DNA from: Candidatus Omnitrophota bacterium
GTDB lineage: Bacteria; Omnitrophota; Gorgyraeia; Gygaellales; UBA12090
DNA: 52,315 nucleotides
Direction: 5' to 3'
Assembly (NCBI GenBank): GCA_030674475.1
Contig: JAUSCZ010000035.1
Location: forward strand, 138,682-190,996
The position numbers and the translations under genes are program-made. The notes below the pieces were generated by a model. That model was not told the DNA's origin. It saw only the letters and a program-made list of their open reading frames with translations, and ran no database searches. Every line of letters starts with the position of its first letter. Positions within the stretch are counted from its first letter, which is position 1. Positions 1,827 to 11,890 of this stretch are shown piece by piece.

Positions 1827-2168
1827 CTAATAGTCAACGGTTACATTAAAGGCGCGGGTATTCTTGGGCCCGCTGCCGGGAGCTCCCCAAACCACCTTTG
1901 CCTGATAACCACCATTAAGGCCTCCCGAAGGCAGCACATCTGTCCAGGTCTCGGCACCGGAAGGAGGGCTTTTTGCCCCGGTTCTCAGTTGTTCAAAAAC
2001 ATAAGTATGCGCGGCTTCCGCGGTATAAAATGCCCTCATCCGCTTGATTTGATATTCAGCAATACGGGCCTGGTTGGTCATAAGCCCTATTACCACTGCC
2101 GCGGTAATTGATAACACTATAATAAAAATAAGAGCTATCATCAAGATTATTCCTTTTTGGTTAGCCAT
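1827..2168 (-). CDS. PilX-like minor pilin, translated from an internal start
   Basis: An ATG at 2168 is preceded by CAGGAG 11 nt upstream, and the product begins MANQKGIILMIALIFIIVLSITAAVVIG. This matches the PilX/PilX_N type: short leader, 'QKG' before a long hydrophobic helix, then a TNQARIAEYQIKRMRAFYTAEAA segment, where the A-x-x-AE-A motif is characteristic. The 113-residue protein is shorter than typical PilX. The reading frame is open upstream into a siroheme-decarboxylase-like domain with no stop between them. The pilin could therefore be made alone from this start, as a fusion, or both; the leader and ribosome site favour independent translation. Confidence 0.65.
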   Translation of the reverse strand: MANQKGIILMIALIFIIVLSITAAVVIGLMTNQARIAEYQIKRMRAFYTAEAAHTYVFEQLRTGAKSPPSGAETWTDVLPSGGLNGGYQAKVVWGAPGSGPKNTRAFNVTVDY

Positions 2169-2624
2169 CCTCTTAACTTCTCCTGATGGAAATTTTGTTA
2201 TTGCTCGCCCCTTGCAAATAAAGCTCCGCTTGTTTCTTGCCGGGTTAAATGAGGTTTTCTTTAGTTCCTTGACGGTGTTGAGCACCCTGAAATCGCGGCA
2301 GTTAAGCAGGCGCGAAAGCTCATCAATAAAAATGCTTAGCTCTTTCTTAGCCTTGGCGTGAACCATGGTGTAGAGACTGTAAGGCCAGAGCCGATGGGGC
2401 TTTCTTAAATAGATATGGCTGAGATATTCTTTTTCTTTGAGGGCCGCGCTCAGCTTATTACCCGGAGAGCTTCTTTTCCAGGCAATAAGGGCATTATGGC
2501 TAAATTGCAGTTTCTGGTGGCTGACAATCGCCCCGAAGCGACGGAGCTTTCCCGCCTTCAAATCGCGCTTTAATTTCTCTAACTCTTCTTTAGTGAAAGG
2601 CTCAGACTTTATTTCTATGTCCAT
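1827..2624 (-). CDS. ahbB: AhbB-like siroheme decarboxylase domain, in frame with the PilX-like pilin
   Basis: Residues 1-130 match the C-terminal part of AhbB: KAGKLRRFGAIVSHQKL, the PHRLWPYSLYTMVHAKAK core (family pattern GWPYNLYTM-h), and the closing RVLNTVKELKKTSF. The AhbA/AhbB heterodimer decarboxylates siroheme to 12,18-didecarboxysiroheme in the alternative heme pathway. Two things are odd. The N-terminal HTH-like half is shortened: only a recognition-helix remnant (TKEELEKLKRDL) precedes the core. No stop separates residue ~130 from the pilin start at residue 153, so the frame is 265 codons. ahbB may have lost its own stop, or this may be a true fusion. A 50-bp palindrome lies just upstream. 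Confidence 0.6.
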   Translation of the reverse strand: MDIEIKSEPFTKEELEKLKRDLKAGKLRRFGAIVSHQKLQFSHNALIAWKRSSPGNKLSAALKEKEYLSHIYLRKPHRLWPYSLYTMVHAKAKKELSIFIDELSRLLNCRDFRVLNTVKELKKTSFNPARNKRSFICKGRAITKFPSGEVKRMANQKGIILMIALIFIIVLSITAAVVIGLMTNQARIAEYQIKRMRAFYTAEAAHTYVFEQLRTGAKSPPSGAETWTDVLPSGGLNGGYQAKVVWGAPGSGPKNTRAFNVTVDY

Positions 2625-2640
2625 TTAATTTCCAGAAATC

Positions 2641-2690
2641 CCCCTCACCCTACCCTCTCCCCCGTCGGGGGAGAGGATTAAGGTGAGGGG
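2641..2690. repeat. 50-bp dispersed palindrome between ahbA and ahbB
   Basis: The sequence is a near-perfect inverted repeat, CCCCTCACCCTA.CCTCTCCCCC against GGGGGAGAGG.TTAAGGTGAGGGG with a GTCG centre. Palindromes of this CCCTCACC...GGTGAGGG type are scattered in many bacterial genomes as small non-autonomous elements. It fills most of the gap between ahbA and ahbB, may have displaced the normal 5' end of ahbB, and would fold into a strong hairpin in the transcript. Confidence 0.85.
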
Positions 2691-2722
2691 AAAATTGCGC
2701 TATTTTGAACAGCTATGATTTT

Positions 2723-3205
2723 CTAAGGTTGAAAGACAGTCTTTATTTTTATGGTCCTGATTGTGGGCAGGCTGATTATGGTTTTTATCCGGCTTTTCTC
2801 CTTGATGGCCTGGATTATCCGCTTGATTTTATTTTCGGATGGGCAGATCAAAGTAAACCAAAGATTAAACTCGGGGTCATCCCGCAGATAGTTATGGGTT
2901 ACCTCGGAGAAGCTATTAATTAGGCTCGCGGTTTGGCCTATTTTTTCCGCAGGAACGCGCATCCCCACCAGGGTCCGCTTAAATTTAAGGTTCTCGGAGC
3001 TGTGCACCGGGCCGATGCGCTTGATCAGGCCTAAGCCCTTAAGGCGCTTGGTTCTTAAAATGACATCCTCTTCGCTTAAATTCAAATCTTTGCCTATCCG
3101 TTTAAATGGCCTTAAAACCAGAGGAAATTTCTCTTGCAGGTAAAAAAGTAGTTTTTTATCTATATTGTCTATACCGATGGATTCCCGCTTTCGCGGGAAT
3201 GACAT
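2723..3205 (-). CDS. ahbA: AhbA-like siroheme decarboxylase subunit
   Basis: The Lrp/AsnC-fold architecture of AhbA is complete: an HTH-like N-terminal part (IDKKLLFYLQEKFPLVLRPF, then LNLSEEDVILRTKRLKGLGLIKRIG) and the ligand-binding core with the family hallmark SEVTHNYLRDD..NLWFTL. Together with AhbB it removes two acetate carboxyls of siroheme on the route to heme b; NirD/L proteins of heme d1 synthesis are related. The start is uncertain. ATG 3205 places a mobile palindrome in the coding region (residues SFPRKRES), ATG 3259 lies at the foot of a terminator hairpin, and the conserved domain begins only at IDNIDKK. It probably supplies heme for the upstream respiratory operon. Confidence 0.75.
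   Translation of the reverse strand: MSFPRKRESIGIDNIDKKLLFYLQEKFPLVLRPFKRIGKDLNLSEEDVILRTKRLKGLGLIKRIGPVHSSENLKFKRTLVGMRVPAEKIGQTASLINSFSEVTHNYLRDDPEFNLWFTLICPSENKIKRIIQAIKEKSRIKTIISLPTIRTIKIKTVFQP
3181..3200. repeat. ATTCCCGC/GCGGGAAT palindrome inside the 5' end of ahbA
   Basis: This is a perfect 8-bp inverted repeat with a 4-nt loop. Read in the ahbA frame it encodes FPRKRES, a peptide well known from annotation artefacts where this palindrome has landed at gene starts. It marks an insertion at, or just before, the true ahbA start. Confidence 0.85.
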
Positions 3206-3260
3206 TTTTAGACATTTTGCAACAGTCCCATCAAATGCTATCGAATCTTTTTTAAGCATA

Positions 3261-3331: not shown

Positions 3332-3721
3332 CTATTCCACAATAACTTCTCCGCTCATATGCAGATGCTCGTTAGAGCACCAAACCGTGCAGAAAAACGG
3401 GAATTTTCCCCTCTTATCCGGGGTAAACTTCACCACCTCTACCTCTCCGGCTTTTATCTCTCTGGCTGAAACATTAAACTCCGGCAGGGAAAAACCGTGG
3501 CTGACCGTCTCCACATTGCGGATATAAATCTTTGCCTCTTTCCCCAAGGGAACCTTGAACTCTTTAGGATACCAGTTGCCGTTTAGAGGCGAGCGGGCAA
3601 TCAGCTCCACGGTATAAAACTTCTTACGCCTGGCGCCTTCAATAACAAAAACCCCGATAATGGTCCCCACGGTCGCCAATAACATCAGAATAACCGCTAT
3701 AGTCTCGTTTATCTTTTTCAT
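3332..3721 (-). CDS. Membrane-anchored CuA-type cupredoxin (second in operon)
   Basis: The 129-residue protein has an N-terminal membrane helix (residues 7-27, uncleaved anchor) and a periplasmic cupredoxin domain. The metal motif C111-TVW-C115-SNE-H119-LH-M122 together with H75 in SHGF is the Cys-x3-Cys-x3-His-x2-Met plus upstream His pattern of binuclear CuA sites in cytochrome oxidase subunit II and nitrous oxide reductase. It would carry single electrons on the outer face. It is the last gene of the molybdoenzyme operon, with its own AAGGGA ribosome site 8 nt before the ATG. No oxidase subunit I accompanies it, so it most likely wires the polyferredoxin or another donor to the molybdoenzyme. 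Confidence 0.85.
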   Translation of the reverse strand: MKKINETIAVILMLLATVGTIIGVFVIEGARRKKFYTVELIARSPLNGNWYPKEFKVPLGKEAKIYIRNVETVSHGFSLPEFNVSAREIKAGEVEVVKFTPDKRGKFPFFCTVWCSNEHLHMSGEVIVE

Positions 3722-3835: not shown

Positions 3836-5245
3836 TTATCCTATATACAGCCATAAAAAAGCCAAGGTCGCCAGGGTCAAGAAAATCAAAATGGGAATCC
3901 AGCCCCGTTTGGCCTGTTCCTCGGTAGGATAGGTCTGTCTGGACAGCCGCGCGCCGTAAGCAAGGGAAAACAAATAGAACACTATCAGCACCGCGCCCTG
4001 CAGGTGTCCCAACGCCCCGGTAAATACCGGAGTCCAGGGAACACTCCTGGTGCCGAAAAGGTTCCAGCCCCAGGCAAAAGGATCCGAAATAATATGTAAA
4101 ATGTAGCTTCCGTTGGGCAGGACAATCCCCACGCTAAAGGCAATCCAAACTCCTAAACCTAAAGGCACCAGGGTATAAGAAAAATTAGTGAATATCTTTT
4201 TTAAGGAAACCTCTTTTGCCCCGCTAAAAGACTTGGACAGGTAACTAAACACCAAGAATATTGCCGGGACAATCAACAGGCTGAAAGCGGTATGCAAAGA
4301 AATAAAGGTCAGATACCCCTTTAAAGAGGTGCCCCTGACCCAGTCCTTGAGAAAACCCCAGGGCCCCTGCATAGTCAGGAAAAAGACCATGGCAATCCCC
4401 AACATAATAAAGGCCTTCCAGGCCTCATCCAGACCGCGCTTTTCATCTACCAGAAGATCCACCCCCGGCGGCCGCAAATTAAAAGCCATATTATCATGAG
4501 GACAACTTTTAAAACATTCTAAACACATCCCGCAGTAGGTATTCTTAGTAAAATTAAAAGGAGTAAGCATCCAGGGACAGCCATAGCCGCATTCATTACC
4601 CACATAGCAGGTCTTGACCTTATGGTTCTTACAGATCTCCGGATCCTTCCTTCTGACCTCCGCCATGGCAAACTGGGAATATAAGCCCTGGAAGCCGGAA
4701 ACCGGGCAGACATAAAGACAGAAACTGCGCTTCTCAAAGACAAGTCCGATCAAAAAAGCCAAAAGAATTATCCCGCCTAAAAGAATAAAAGTAGCCAATG
4801 GCCGCACTGTAAAGAAGCCGGAGAAGAATGTGGTAACCAAGAAAAGTATATTCATCACCCACATATTCTTTAAGGCCTTGGGCCATTTCAGGCCTAATCC
4901 TTTTAACTTTAAACCGGTAACTACGAATAACGCCCCTCTCTGCAGCCAGTCGCTGAATACCGGAAACGGGCACATCAGACACCAGGCCCGGGAGAATATC
5001 GGTACCAGGATAAACATCAGCATTACCCACCAGAGTATCCAGACAATCATAATCCCGAAATTATAATTCCCGGCGGAAAAACCCCCAATCAAACCGGAAA
5101 TCAGGATAATCACAAAGATAAAGAGGTTAAAAATTATAGCCAGGAGGGGAAACCAACGGGACTTAAATAGATTTCTGATGAGTTTGAACTTAGTCAGCTC
5201 AAAACGCCAATTTAAATCTATTAATCCGAATAATTTATCAGCCAT
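3836..5245 (-). CDS. NapH/NosR/CcoG-like membrane polyferredoxin
   Basis: This is a 469-residue integral membrane protein with about nine or ten hydrophobic helices. Two cysteine motifs mark the membrane face as in NapH/NosR: C89-LM-C92-P and C176-LYV-C180-P. Between helices lie a four-Cys cluster C205, C213, C219, C223 and a classical 4Fe-4S ligand set C238-GM-C241-LE-C244-FKS-C248-P. Such proteins pass electrons between the quinone pool or cytoplasm and periplasmic reductases. It overlaps the preceding cupredoxin gene by 8 bp, indicating translational coupling. No N-terminal FMN-binding NosR domain is present, so it is closer to NapH/CcoG in layout, with extra C-terminal helices. Confidence 0.85.
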   Translation of the reverse strand: MADKLFGLIDLNWRFELTKFKLIRNLFKSRWFPLLAIIFNLFIFVIILISGLIGGFSAGNYNFGIMIVWILWWVMLMFILVPIFSRAWCLMCPFPVFSDWLQRGALFVVTGLKLKGLGLKWPKALKNMWVMNILFLVTTFFSGFFTVRPLATFILLGGIILLAFLIGLVFEKRSFCLYVCPVSGFQGLYSQFAMAEVRRKDPEICKNHKVKTCYVGNECGYGCPWMLTPFNFTKNTYCGMCLECFKSCPHDNMAFNLRPPGVDLLVDEKRGLDEAWKAFIMLGIAMVFFLTMQGPWGFLKDWVRGTSLKGYLTFISLHTAFSLLIVPAIFLVFSYLSKSFSGAKEVSLKKIFTNFSYTLVPLGLGVWIAFSVGIVLPNGSYILHIISDPFAWGWNLFGTRSVPWTPVFTGALGHLQGAVLIVFYLFSLAYGARLSRQTYPTEEQAKRGWIPILIFLTLATLAFLWLYIG

Positions 5246-5687
5246 TTGTCTTTCTCGCGCGATTAAGAGTAATAAGACTTCCTATGCCGATTACCAACAC
5301 TATTGCCGCGTACAGCCAAAAGCGTGAATTTGGCCCTACCACCAGATACCCCACCATATAAGGATGAAACTCCCCGCAGGTTACCGAACAGCGAAAGGTA
5401 TATCTACCCGCTTTATCCGCGATGAACTTCAGGCTGCCCTCCATCCCTGGATGGGCCGAGGTCTTTATCCCGTAACCGTCCACAAAAAACCCATGATGCA
5501 CATCCTCGCTAAGCAGACGGATTTTTACCGTATCCCCCCGGTTAACATTGATGATATTGGGAGTATAAGAAAATTTCTTGGCCTTGATCTCAAAAAACCT
5601 CTCCGCCGCCTGCGCCGATCCTGGCATAAACCATAAGCCATAAACTATAAACGAACTGATTATTAGTATATTTTTGCGTAATTTCAT
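5238..5687 (-). CDS. Exported CuA-type cupredoxin with C-terminal anchor (first in operon)
   Basis: Starting at ATG 5687, whose ATGA overlaps the stop of the gamma-subunit gene, the protein is 149 residues. It has a cleavable signal peptide ending near GSAQAAE, a cupredoxin domain and a C-terminal membrane helix (about residues 122-141). The site C100-SVT-C104-GEF-H108-PY-M111 with His64/65 (DVHHGF) is the complete CuA ligand set of the COX2/NosZ type. An upstream ATG at 5708 lies inside the previous gene and is unlikely. It is probably the one-electron relay next to the heme-b gamma subunit. The topology is the reverse of the other CuA protein in this operon. Confidence 0.88.
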   Translation of the reverse strand: MKLRKNILIISSFIVYGLWFMPGSAQAAERFFEIKAKKFSYTPNIINVNRGDTVKIRLLSEDVHHGFFVDGYGIKTSAHPGMEGSLKFIADKAGRYTFRCSVTCGEFHPYMVGYLVVGPNSRFWLYAAIVLVIGIGSLITLNRARKTNG

Positions 5688-6529
5688 TGTATATTTAATT
5701 CTACCCAATCCGATATGGACTTTCTTCCGCCCCGGTCTTCTTGTGAGCCGTTCCAGATGGCTAAGGCGGCTAATTTCTTTCCCGCGGCAAAATTTACCCC
5801 GTTCTCAGCCTCCAGGGCCTCAAGCGGCCGCTTAAGCACTATACTCCAAACCCCGTTCTCCCAAACACCCTTACCCATTACCTCCTGATTGTCTTTAGGG
5901 GTTATGGTGCCTACCCGGATAGCCAGCAAATCATTCACCGCGGATTTAGTGACGTGTTTGGATACCGGAAAAAGTTCCTGTTCCTCGAAAGGATAGTAAA
6001 AATCCACATAGGCGTTGGTCTGGGGAGATTCATTCTTCCAATATTCCCGATCCTGATTGGCCTTCCACTGCCAGATATTCACCCGGCCCAGAAAACCCAT
6101 CATAATGGTATGCGGCTGGGCCTTTTTCTCCAAAGGAAACATTATTGCCCCGGCATCAGGCCAAACCGCGGTTTCATGAAAGCGGTCTTCTGTGTTATCC
6201 GGCCAGCTTAGATAAAAGTAAATATTCTCCTTATTGTGAAAGGCCTTAAAGGTTACCTCCCCCAGCCCGGCCTTTATCTTCGGCCAGGGCAGGACAGTTA
6301 CCTGATACATCAGCTTAATTTCCTGAGGCTTGATGCCCTGCCAGAGCTCCGGAGAAATCCCCTGGGCCAGGTCTATGTCCTGGGCAATAAAAGGCACCTC
6401 CGCCAGCGGAGTTACAATCTTCTCAATCTTTACCGGTGTCCCCCTGGAATTAGTTACCCCGTAATAAATCAAACCGGCAAAGGCCGCGATCAATATAACC
6501 GCGATTAAAAAGGCAGTGGATTTTTTCAT
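5684..6529 (-). CDS. NxrC/EbdC-like heme-b gamma subunit of the molybdoenzyme
   Basis: After an N-terminal membrane anchor or signal (residues 5-24), the 281-residue protein has the ethylbenzene-dehydrogenase-type heme-binding fold: AFHNKENIYFYLSWPD, then HTIMMGF..VNIWQWKA, and near the end GGRKSISDW. By analogy with EbdC (axial Met and Lys), Met143/144 and Lys270 are the candidate heme-b ligands. No CxxCH is present, so heme is not covalently bound. The gene overlaps the chaperone gene by 4 bp (ATGA) and the CuA gene likewise. Its role is to pass electrons between the iron-sulfur subunit and the CuA protein on the periplasmic face. Confidence 0.85.
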   Translation of the reverse strand: MKKSTAFLIAVILIAAFAGLIYYGVTNSRGTPVKIEKIVTPLAEVPFIAQDIDLAQGISPELWQGIKPQEIKLMYQVTVLPWPKIKAGLGEVTFKAFHNKENIYFYLSWPDNTEDRFHETAVWPDAGAIMFPLEKKAQPHTIMMGFLGRVNIWQWKANQDREYWKNESPQTNAYVDFYYPFEEQELFPVSKHVTKSAVNDLLAIRVGTITPKDNQEVMGKGVWENGVWSIVLKRPLEALEAENGVNFAAGKKLAALAIWNGSQEDRGGRKSISDWVELNIQ

Positions 6530-7056
6530 TTGGCGTTAAAGAACTCCTCTTCTTGGCTCAAGAAATCAATCAATTCCGAGGCCGCGTTCTTATAAAAGGT
6601 ATTCTCCGTGGCGGCAACAATCTTTTGGGCAATAGCCTTGGCCGCCGGGCTTAAGTGTTCAGTGAAGAATTTTTTCTGGGCGTTAAGACAGATCTCCGCC
6701 TTTTCTTGAGTCGGGGCCTTAGCTTCCTTAAAAATCAAATAGTGCATAAATTCTAACTCGGCGTTCAAGGCATCCGGACGTTCGGAGTTTACCTCCACCC
6801 CAAAGGCCTTATAGAAACCGGAGATATCCGCTAAATAATTACTTCTCTGAAATTCATGTTCGCTCATATATTCCGTGCCATAGAGCCAGATGTCCTTGGC
6901 CCGGAAAAGGCGGTCGTATTCCCGAATAAGCTCTCCTTTTTCTCCAGAGGACTCCGGAAAAAAATCAAAAAAGCTTCCTTCCGGGTAAGAAAAGGCCACC
7001 GCCAAACTCTTATATTTACTTAATCTCTCTTTATTTAACTCTAATTGTGCCACCAT
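6526..7056 (-). CDS. TorD/NarJ-family molybdoenzyme assembly chaperone
   Basis: The protein is 176 residues, cytoplasmic and predicted all-helical. The hallmark of the TorD/DmsD/NarJ group is present at residues 92-108: ERPDALNAELEFMHYLI (pattern E-x-PDHL-x-x-ELEFM). These chaperones bind the Tat leader and apo-enzyme of Mo-bisMGD proteins until cofactor insertion is complete. It sits between the iron-sulfur and heme subunits as in nxr, ebd, ser and clr operons, and its last 4 bp overlap the gamma-subunit start. It is expected to act on the catalytic subunit encoded two genes upstream. Confidence 0.88.
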   Translation of the reverse strand: MVAQLELNKERLSKYKSLAVAFSYPEGSFFDFFPESSGEKGELIREYDRLFRAKDIWLYGTEYMSEHEFQRSNYLADISGFYKAFGVEVNSERPDALNAELEFMHYLIFKEAKAPTQEKAEICLNAQKKFFTEHLSPAAKAIAQKIVAATENTFYKNAASELIDFLSQEEEFFNAK

Positions 7057-11200: not shown

Positions 11201-11695
11201 CTCTTTACCGCGCTGGAGGTATTCTGAAGACGGCTTTCCGTCTACGCCTCGGGGGAATCCCGCCTCTACCCACTTCTTAAAGCCCTCCCGGACCATCGGG
11301 TATTTGACCCTGCGCGGGCCGTAAACCCTGCGGTTTAAAACCAATCCCTTATTGCACAACCTGGGCTCCCAACGGTGAGAAGCCTGATTGCCGTAAACAT
11401 CCTTGGCCTTGCCATAGCCGTAGCTTGGTCCGATTCTGGTAATAATATCGTTCTTGACATAGGCCCTAAGTAGGCAGTTATGGGTATCATTGGGGGCGCA
11501 GAGGAAATGAAAGGTGGAATCAAACTTAAATTGGCTGCGGTAGATTTTTTCCCAATCCCGGTTAGGATAGAACTCCAGAGGATTATCCACCTCCGGGATA
11601 AACTTTAAAGCCGCCAGCAATGGTTTGCTCGCGGCTAGACCGGCAATAGAAATTAAGGAAGCTTTTAAAAATTGCTTACGGGTAAGCTTTTTCAT
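8240..11695 (-). CDS. nxrA: NXR/NAR-type Mo-bisMGD catalytic alpha subunit (type II DMSO reductase family)
   Basis: The 1,151-residue enzyme has a Tat-like leader, TRKQFLK followed by a hydrophobic stretch to ~residue 29, with Arg-Lys in place of the usual twin Arg. Iron-sulfur ligands for the FS0 cluster are in H63-FL-C66-APNDTHN-C74 and later C114 (PRLCNKG). The molybdenum ligand is predicted to be Asp273 in WHTDLPPGHP, equivalent to the NarG aspartate in YSDLPP. The opening YPNRDWEKIYRSQFKFDSTF and length are close to periplasmic nitrite oxidoreductase/nitrate reductase alpha subunits. It should interconvert nitrate and nitrite outside the cytoplasmic membrane; direction is not readable from sequence, and selenate, chlorate or hydrocarbon enzymes share the fold. 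First gene of the operon. Confidence 0.85.
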   Translation of the reverse strand: MKKLTRKQFLKASLISIAGLAASKPLLAALKFIPEVDNPLEFYPNRDWEKIYRSQFKFDSTFHFLCAPNDTHNCLLRAYVKNDIITRIGPSYGYGKAKDVYGNQASHRWEPRLCNKGLVLNRRVYGPRRVKYPMVREGFKKWVEAGFPRGVDGKPSSEYLQRGKENFVKVSWDEIFEIAAKGLINIATTYSGDSGKALLTQQGYDPAMIEAMKGAGVQALKFRGGMPLLGITRLLGMYRTANSMAILDSHIRGLSPDEAVGAKGWDNYSWHTDLPPGHPMVTGQQTIDFDLVDAENSKLIIPWGMNWISTKMPDGHWLTEARVKGAKVISVTVEYSSVASKSDEVVIIRPGSDPAFALGLANVIIQEKLYDEEYVASSTDLPFLVRMDTLKLLRAEEVFADFKPPQGAREVKIVNKGEKPPAPIKQGGQQHISQELLNEFGSFVVWDKDKNALGAVTRDEVGKYFVEKGVKPVLDADEYEVVDIKGNKLKVRTVYSILSQYIKDNFDPETVSKITWAPKEAIISLARQIAENKGKTLIAVGMGPNHFFNNDLKDRAIFLVCSLTRNIGTHGGNIGSFAGNYRVAYFDGIGQYISEDPFNPELDESKPAKVRQYFKFESAHYYNHGDQPLRIGNKLFTGKSHMPTPTKSLMFANANSILGNLKGHYDMVINTLPKIDMITVSDWWWTASCEYADVVFPVDSWAEFKYPDATAAVTNPFLQMYPTTPLKRLHDTRSDMEIYSGVAKALSRLLNDNRFADFWKFVDDGRVDVYLQRIMSASSMAKGYKVLELEKDAKEGIPALLMSRTYPKIMGWEQANENKKWYTKTGRLEFYREEDEFIEAGENLPVYREPIDGTIFEPNVIVAKPHPAIKPAQPEQYGLSKDNLSTDVRQVRNVMMTPEELLKSNHPLRKDGWSHVYITPKYRHGAHTTPIDTDIIAIWFGPFGDPTRRDKRTPWVGEGYVDINPADAKELGIEDGDYVWVDADPEDRPYHGEKIPGSENYRLSRLCLRARYYYGIPRTVSRSWFNMYGATYGSVQGHLENKDGLARNPRTGYQAMYRFGSHQSCTRGWLKPTLMTESLVRKDTVGQVISKGFAPDVHCPTGAPKESFVKFTKAEDGGINPEKLWRPVKLGLRPTYENAAMKNFLKGAFVS

Positions 11696-11721
11696 AGTTC
11701 GACTCGCTTTGCTTGCTCACT

Positions 11722-11757
11722 ATGATCCTGAGCAAATGAAATGCGTCGAAGGATCAT
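11722..11757. repeat. ATGATCCT/AGGATCAT dispersed palindrome in the operon leader
   Basis: 8-bp perfect arms flank a 20-nt interior that includes GAGCAAAT and GCGTCGA. It resembles the widespread 'GATCCTTCGAC...CTCAGGATCAT' element. It lies between the CRP-like palindrome and the nxrA start and would fold in the 5' leader. The final stretch AAGCAAAGCGAGT just before the ATG resembles the ribosome-site module seen ahead of ribosomal genes in this window. Confidence 0.75.
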
Positions 11758-11779
11758 GTTTTACTTTTAATTATTTATA

Positions 11780-11795
11780 TGTGAATATTTTCACA
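11780..11795. promoter_or_regulatory. TGTGA-N6-TCACA palindrome (CRP/FNR-superfamily operator)
   Basis: TGTGAATATTTTCACA is an exact TGTGA-N6-TCACA site, with one more matching base pair each side (A...T). This is the consensus of CRP-type regulators and close to FNR/DNR-type sites. It lies 84 bp upstream of the nxrA ATG and about 55-70 nt downstream of the start point implied by the promoter at 11857-11884. It would repress that promoter from inside the leader, or activate a second, closer start. Confidence 0.7.
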
Positions 11796-11856
11796 TCAAC
11801 CTGAATAAAAAAAGTAGTAAGCGCGTGAGGCTTGCCTTCTAATCATTACATAAATA

Positions 11857-11884
11857 ATTATAGCCAAAATGAAAATCTTGTCAA
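11857..11884 (-). promoter_or_regulatory. Consensus sigma70-type promoter of the NXR-type operon
   Basis: On the minus strand TTGACA (11884-11879) and TATAAT (11862-11857) are separated by 16 bp. Both hexamers match the consensus perfectly. The start point should fall near 11850, giving a leader of about 155 nt. This is the only exact consensus promoter I noticed in the window. Confidence 0.7.
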
Positions 11885-11890
11885 GATTTT
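11872..11890. promoter_or_regulatory. Perfect palindrome over the -35 box (operator or weak terminator)
   Basis: AAAATCTTG-T-CAAGATTTT is a perfect 9-bp inverted repeat that includes the TTGACA -35 element. It could be an operator for a dimeric regulator covering the -35, or an A/T-rich terminator for the phosphoribosyltransferase gene ending 2 bp away. On the plus strand it is followed by a T7 run, but no plus-strand gene reads into it. Confidence 0.5.

Follow-up and report, generated by a model that had tools for sequence, protein, structure and literature searches.

A predicted Rex operator in the transcribed leader of an NXR-type operon of an Omnitrophota bacterium

The window analysed here, the whole stretch of 52,315 nucleotides, carries on its minus strand an operon of the nitrite oxidoreductase (NXR) type, headed by a strong promoter and a leader that contains a palindrome. 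The best solved relative of the catalytic subunit A is the Kuenenia nitrite oxidoreductase subunit A (7b04, 921 bits, residues 3-1150 aligned), a full-length match that bears out the NXR-type label of the initial annotation, and the nearest named relatives are Omnitrophota metagenome bins. The features of the leader and of the operon are:

11879..11884, minus strand, -35 element TTGACA, invariant in all five site-bearing leaders
11857..11862, minus strand, -10 element TATAAT, spacer 16, predicted transcription start at about 11850 (consensus match only)
11779..11796, minus strand, predicted Rex operator ATGTGAAAATATTCACAT, an 18-mer kept in four other genomes with the NXR leader
11698..11758, minus strand, inserted repeat-like element (TGATCCTTCGACGC...GCTCAGGATCATAGTGAGC; also given as CCTTCGAC...GCTCAGGATCATAGTGAGC), between operator and start codon
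8240..11695, minus strand, NXR-type catalytic subunit A, 1151 aa, with a twin-arginine-like signal LTRKQFLK; 7b04, 921 bits
7098..8243, minus strand, iron-sulfur subunit B (DMSO reductase type II beta model, below cut-off)
6526..7056, minus strand, maturation chaperone of the nitrate reductase delta type
5684..6529, minus strand, heme b subunit C of the ethylbenzene dehydrogenase gamma type
5238..5708, minus strand, cupredoxin/COX2-like electron carrier
3836..5245, minus strand, membrane iron-sulfur protein (Fer4_5)
3332..3721, minus strand, second cupredoxin

Promoters were identified as consensus matches and +1 was set 7 bases past the -10 element (about 11850), which places the 18-mer at +55 to +72 and the 16-mer at its centre, TGTGAATATTTTCACA (11780-11795), at about +56 to +71, with the start codon of the first gene at 11695. 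The initial annotation had described a TGTGA-N6-TCACA palindrome at 11780-11795, about +55 to +70 downstream of an exact TTGACA-16-TATAAT promoter, and both the position and the placement are confirmed. This is the sole perfect copy of the pattern within the window, where a first-order Markov estimate predicts 0.009 copies (0.37 per genome). Compared with TTGTGAA-W4-TTCACAA, the NXR site matches 12 of 14 defined positions, both mismatches being outermost, and it also satisfies the CRP/FNR core TGTGA-N6-TCACA. Once transcribed, the repeat-like element between the operator and the start codon may form a fold close to the ribosome site. A separate palindrome, AAAATCTTGACAAGATTTT, encloses the -35 element (11872-11890); it is identical in a close relative (G002) and decayed in other genera, and it may be due to chance or may be a second, genus-specific operator. 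At the other end, 3' of the operon (1827-3259), there are two genes of the siroheme-decarboxylase-like (AsnC/NirDL) type, which may link the operon to heme d1, to alternative heme synthesis or to an AsnC-type regulator.

A regulon list was built from pattern searches of the genome. The scan for the 16-mer pattern, proposed in the initial annotation, returned seven perfect copies of TGTGA-N6-TCACA against the 0.37 expected, and none of the reversed control pattern. Five of the seven lie upstream of energy genes, namely nuoA, a hydrogenase operon with an NAD-binding subunit (hyd), moeA, fixC-fixX and the NXR operon, and rnfC-rnfD is preceded by a copy with one mismatch. The remaining two perfect copies, on C2 (L006) and C40 (L011), were inspected and set aside as unrelated, with no sensible target, as were one-mismatch copies in L015, L017, L018 and L020 that are located within coding regions. 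A search with TTGTGAAN4TTCACAA at one mismatch or fewer gave exactly four places in the genome, hyd, moeA, fixC and rnfC, each matching 13 of the 14 defined positions of TTGTGAA-W4-TTCACAA, with about 0.5 expected by chance; at two mismatches, nuo, NXR and four further places are added. The targets nuo, rnf, fixCX and the hydrogenase with its NAD-binding subunit belong to NADH and energy metabolism. On sequence grounds, the palindrome most likely links the NXR operon with five further operons of energy metabolism in this genome.

A TTGACA-type promoter is predicted at all six operons. At NXR (+55 to +72), hyd (+29 to +46), moeA (+72 to +89) and rnfC (+45 to +62) the box follows the predicted start; at fixC it overlaps the predicted start, and only at nuo is it located just ahead of the -35 element, at -59 to -42. 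The distance from the end of the box to the start codon is about 6-11 bases at hyd, moeA, fixC and rnfC. Because the box at these four operons is downstream of or over the predicted start, class I or class II activation is impossible there, and repression is therefore the natural reading. The repression suggested by the initial annotation is upheld to this extent, as a conserved leader palindrome at a position that points to repression. In each of the genus's three genomes (L007 3001-3016, L040 3001-3016 and L044 2166-2181) the nuo box immediately precedes the -35 element, and the effect of this site may differ, being either weaker repression or activation.

The NXR leader is readable in five genomes of the family, the present one (G000) and G002, G005, G006 and G008, the gene start in G003 being off the contig. 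As the initial annotation anticipated for close relatives that keep the operon, the palindrome has been retained: ATGTGAAN4TTCACAT is found in five of the five readable leaders, with subunit A identity down to 68%. The 18-mer begins at +49 to +57 and occupies about +49 to +74 overall, and in G006 a second candidate promoter would place it at +19. The other blocks shared by these leaders are the -35 and -10 elements. Between G000 and G002 the distance from promoter to box is equal, whereas the repeat-like insert, which is longer in G002 (L039 8690-8825) owing to a further stretch inserted inside it, shifts the start codon by 52 bases relative to the box. The hyd, moeA and nuo boxes are likewise conserved, and G002, G005 and G006 carry the rnfC box letter for letter, the rnfC gene itself having been checked in G005 and G006. 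When 26 NXR loci located in the collection of genome contigs were checked, the site was found only in the family members L103, L168 and L181; the other 23, mostly from other phyla, have no site apart from one weak match of 11 of 14. In G028, which belongs to the same order and another family, the NXR gene is present and neither box nor Rex was found. We also observed that in G005 moeA and the NXR operon are neighbours on the same strand, separated by AsnC/NirDL-like genes and each provided with a box (L047 3012-3027 and 12707-12722).

Rex is a dimeric redox-sensing repressor, and one is encoded in this genome on C23 (207 aa), scoring 231.7 bits with the NF003993 equivalog against a cut-off of 217. 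It has a GAGNLG motif in an NAD(H)-binding Rossmann domain and matches NAD-bound Rex structures over its full length, the best solved relative being the Thermotoga maritima Rex (E 7e-43). Arg48 and Lys49 of that protein read its operator (PMC8836258), and the corresponding positions in the G000 Rex are Arg-Arg (DQLRRDLWYFG). The DNA agrees with this assignment: the half-site consensus of the family operators is (T/A)TGTGAAWW, with A at position 7 in 40 of 46 half-sites and an AT-rich spacer, and the Staphylococcus aureus Rex sites, TTGTGAAW4TTCACAA, have an AT-rich spacer and frequent mismatches at positions 1 and 7 (PMC2883068). S. aureus Rex binds the upstream regions of narG and nirR (PMC2883068).

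Genomic linkage outside the family points in the same direction. Among more remote relatives the motif is found ahead of hydrogenase operons or of rex itself, and linkage to rex is frequent: rex is directly preceded by the box in G075, G101 and G032, and it adjoins or lies within the box-bearing hydrogenase locus in G037, G088, G058, G105, G109, G111 and G121. Among the 20 genomes outside the family with both, box and rex are within about 7 kb of each other in 10, from five genera, where about 1% is expected for each. By count, site and Rex are only modestly associated outside the family (20/32 vs 33/87, P 0.015), and no box was found at the rex gene of G000 itself. Sites without a Rex match occur in G005 (89% complete) and G008 (65%), as well as in the other-family genomes G033, G041, G043, G054, G085 and G094. 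For G033, about 1.6 Mb, nearly the whole genome, was searched with a profile built from the order's Rex proteins; no Rex emerged, and the best match was a sugar-transferase-like protein with a Rossmann stretch. Genome incompleteness may explain some of these cases but hardly all; in the rest, either Rex has diverged beyond the profiles or another protein reads the box. Taken together these data suggest that the palindrome is probably a Rex operator, at which Rex loaded with NAD+ would block transcription in the leader and from which NADH would release it.

The assignment to the CRP/FNR family in the initial annotation is not the best reading of the box. An operator read by the genome's own CRP/FNR protein, in response to oxygen, nitric oxide or another signal, is in our view very unlikely, although the box is not unlike one. 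Half-site position 7 is A, against the T of CRP, which prefers T/A inside the arms (TGTGAT...ATCACA), and in the six target leaders no good match was found to the FNR-type boxes TTGAT-N4-ATCAA and TTGAC-N4-GTCAA. TGTGA-N6-TCACA is, indeed, the consensus of both Escherichia coli CRP and Desulfovibrio HcpR (PMC1274295), and of the regulator with a matching recognition helix that the initial annotation asked for, the regulator exists: a single CRP/FNR-type protein of 226 aa with a Crp HTH, a second cNMP-binding domain in a frame of 715 aa having no Crp-type HTH match. The helix does not match. It reads IPETLSR, with Pro180 and Glu181, whereas CRP and HcpR have Arg180, and Arg180 is associated with TGTGA boxes and Ser or Pro with TTGAC boxes (Rodionov et al. 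2005, PMC1274295). Pro180 is also found in five of the six other CRP/FNR proteins of the family, leaving six of seven (PETLSR) without Arg180; in G001 a different CRP/FNR-family protein is encoded (L083 1483-2169), with the helix TRETATVI, vs the PETLSR type of its relatives. In the family, whose genomes carry the enlarged set of sites, seven of nine genomes do have a match above the cut-off, but G002 (80% complete) has four perfect sites and no such match, and in other families the motif is frequent in genomes that lack CRP/FNR; over the 128 genomes of the order, CRP/FNR HTH domains are present in 8 and the motif in 38. Recognition helix, co-occurrence, half-site letters and geometry thus reject CRP/FNR as the leading explanation. 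Some part for these proteins keeps a small probability, since the CRP/FNR proteins are encoded in the very family that has the enlarged regulon. The likely signal is NADH/NAD+ rather than, directly, the oxygen or nitric oxide that the initial annotation gave as examples.

A third, unrecognised regulator that read the box across the order, with Rex only sometimes nearby, would account for the genomes in which the box stands ahead of this hydrogenase operon and neither Rex nor CRP/FNR was detected, one of these genomes having been searched almost completely. We consider this improbable, given that linkage to rex recurs independently, in some genomes at the promoter of rex itself, that the present genome encodes Rex and that the motif is identical with the known Rex operator. 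A combined picture, in which an undescribed regulator reads the Rex box kept upstream of the membrane hydrogenase operon in genomes devoid of Rex and CRP/FNR, while in the family the Rex leader roadblock has become standard for most of the electron-transport regulon, is speculative and somewhat unlikely. The location of the box in the transcribed leader, close to the start codons in four operons, could also fit an RNA hairpin acting near the ribosome site, but its arms are invariant in sequence with no covariation, at the NXR operon it is the distance to the promoter that is kept while that to the start codon varies, and the nuo box lies upstream of the promoter. We rejected the hairpin on the invariant arms and the variable position relative to the start codon, and it is highly improbable. 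Chance has in its favour the two perfect copies with no sensible target (C2 and C40), but only 0.009 copies are expected per window, and relatives with subunit A identities as low as 68% retain the palindrome at about +49 to +74, which leaves chance a negligible likelihood.

The predicted Rex operator resembles several known systems, each with differences. The S. aureus Rex regulon (narG, nirR, nirC, adhE, ldh; PMC2883068) shares with it the inverted repeat, the AT-rich spacer and the weak positions 1 and 7, and S. aureus Rex, like the one predicted here, is a repressor of anaerobic electron-disposal genes including narG. The targets differ, being here the NXR-type enzyme, moeA, nuo, rnf, fixCX and the hydrogenase, and so does the placement: S. 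aureus sites are in promoters or within a few bases of them (PMC2883068), whereas most sites here are 30-90 bases past the predicted, consensus-based start. The T. maritima Rex-DNA complex (7WB3, PMC8836258) contains the closest solved Rex, whose base-reading Arg48/Lys49 are conserved as Arg-Arg here; it comes from a different phylum, and its Ser52 is Trp in the Omnitrophota lineage. Desulfovibrio HcpR, of the CRP/FNR family, has a DNA consensus practically equal to our box (wTGTGAnnnnnnTCACAw, PMC1274295), but it needs Arg180, where the present protein has Pro, and the targets here are not hcp/frdX. The core letters of the E. coli CRP site are identical to those of the box, but class I/II activation is ruled out by the box positions at four operons here. 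In the literature searched, there was no paper naming Rex and Omnitrophota together, nor one giving an NXR-type operon in Omnitrophota as a Rex target. Most likely, the operator is of a known kind, and its recurrent place in the leader would be an uncommon variation, provided that the predicted starts are correct.

What we infer for Rex binding, the roadblock, the response to NADH and the direction of the enzyme is as follows. At low NADH, NAD+-bound Rex would occupy the leader some 55-72 bases downstream of the start of a strong sigma-70 promoter, where it would stop the elongating RNA polymerase or hinder promoter escape. A build-up of NADH would release Rex and allow the NXR-type operon to be transcribed, together with moeA (molybdenum cofactor for the NXR-type enzyme), complex I, Rnf, FixCX and the NAD-linked hydrogenase.

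A specific NADH switch would in this way replace the guessed oxygen or nitric-oxide switch, and it would define a small regulon in an uncultured phylum, comprising the NXR-type enzyme, molybdenum cofactor, complex I, Rnf, ETF-quinone reductase and hydrogenase. The company that the NXR-type operon keeps is a clue to which way its enzyme runs. Because genes released at high NADH are normally electron sinks, nitrate reduction is favoured over nitrite oxidation, and the NXR-type enzyme would most plausibly be an electron sink that reduces nitrate in vivo.
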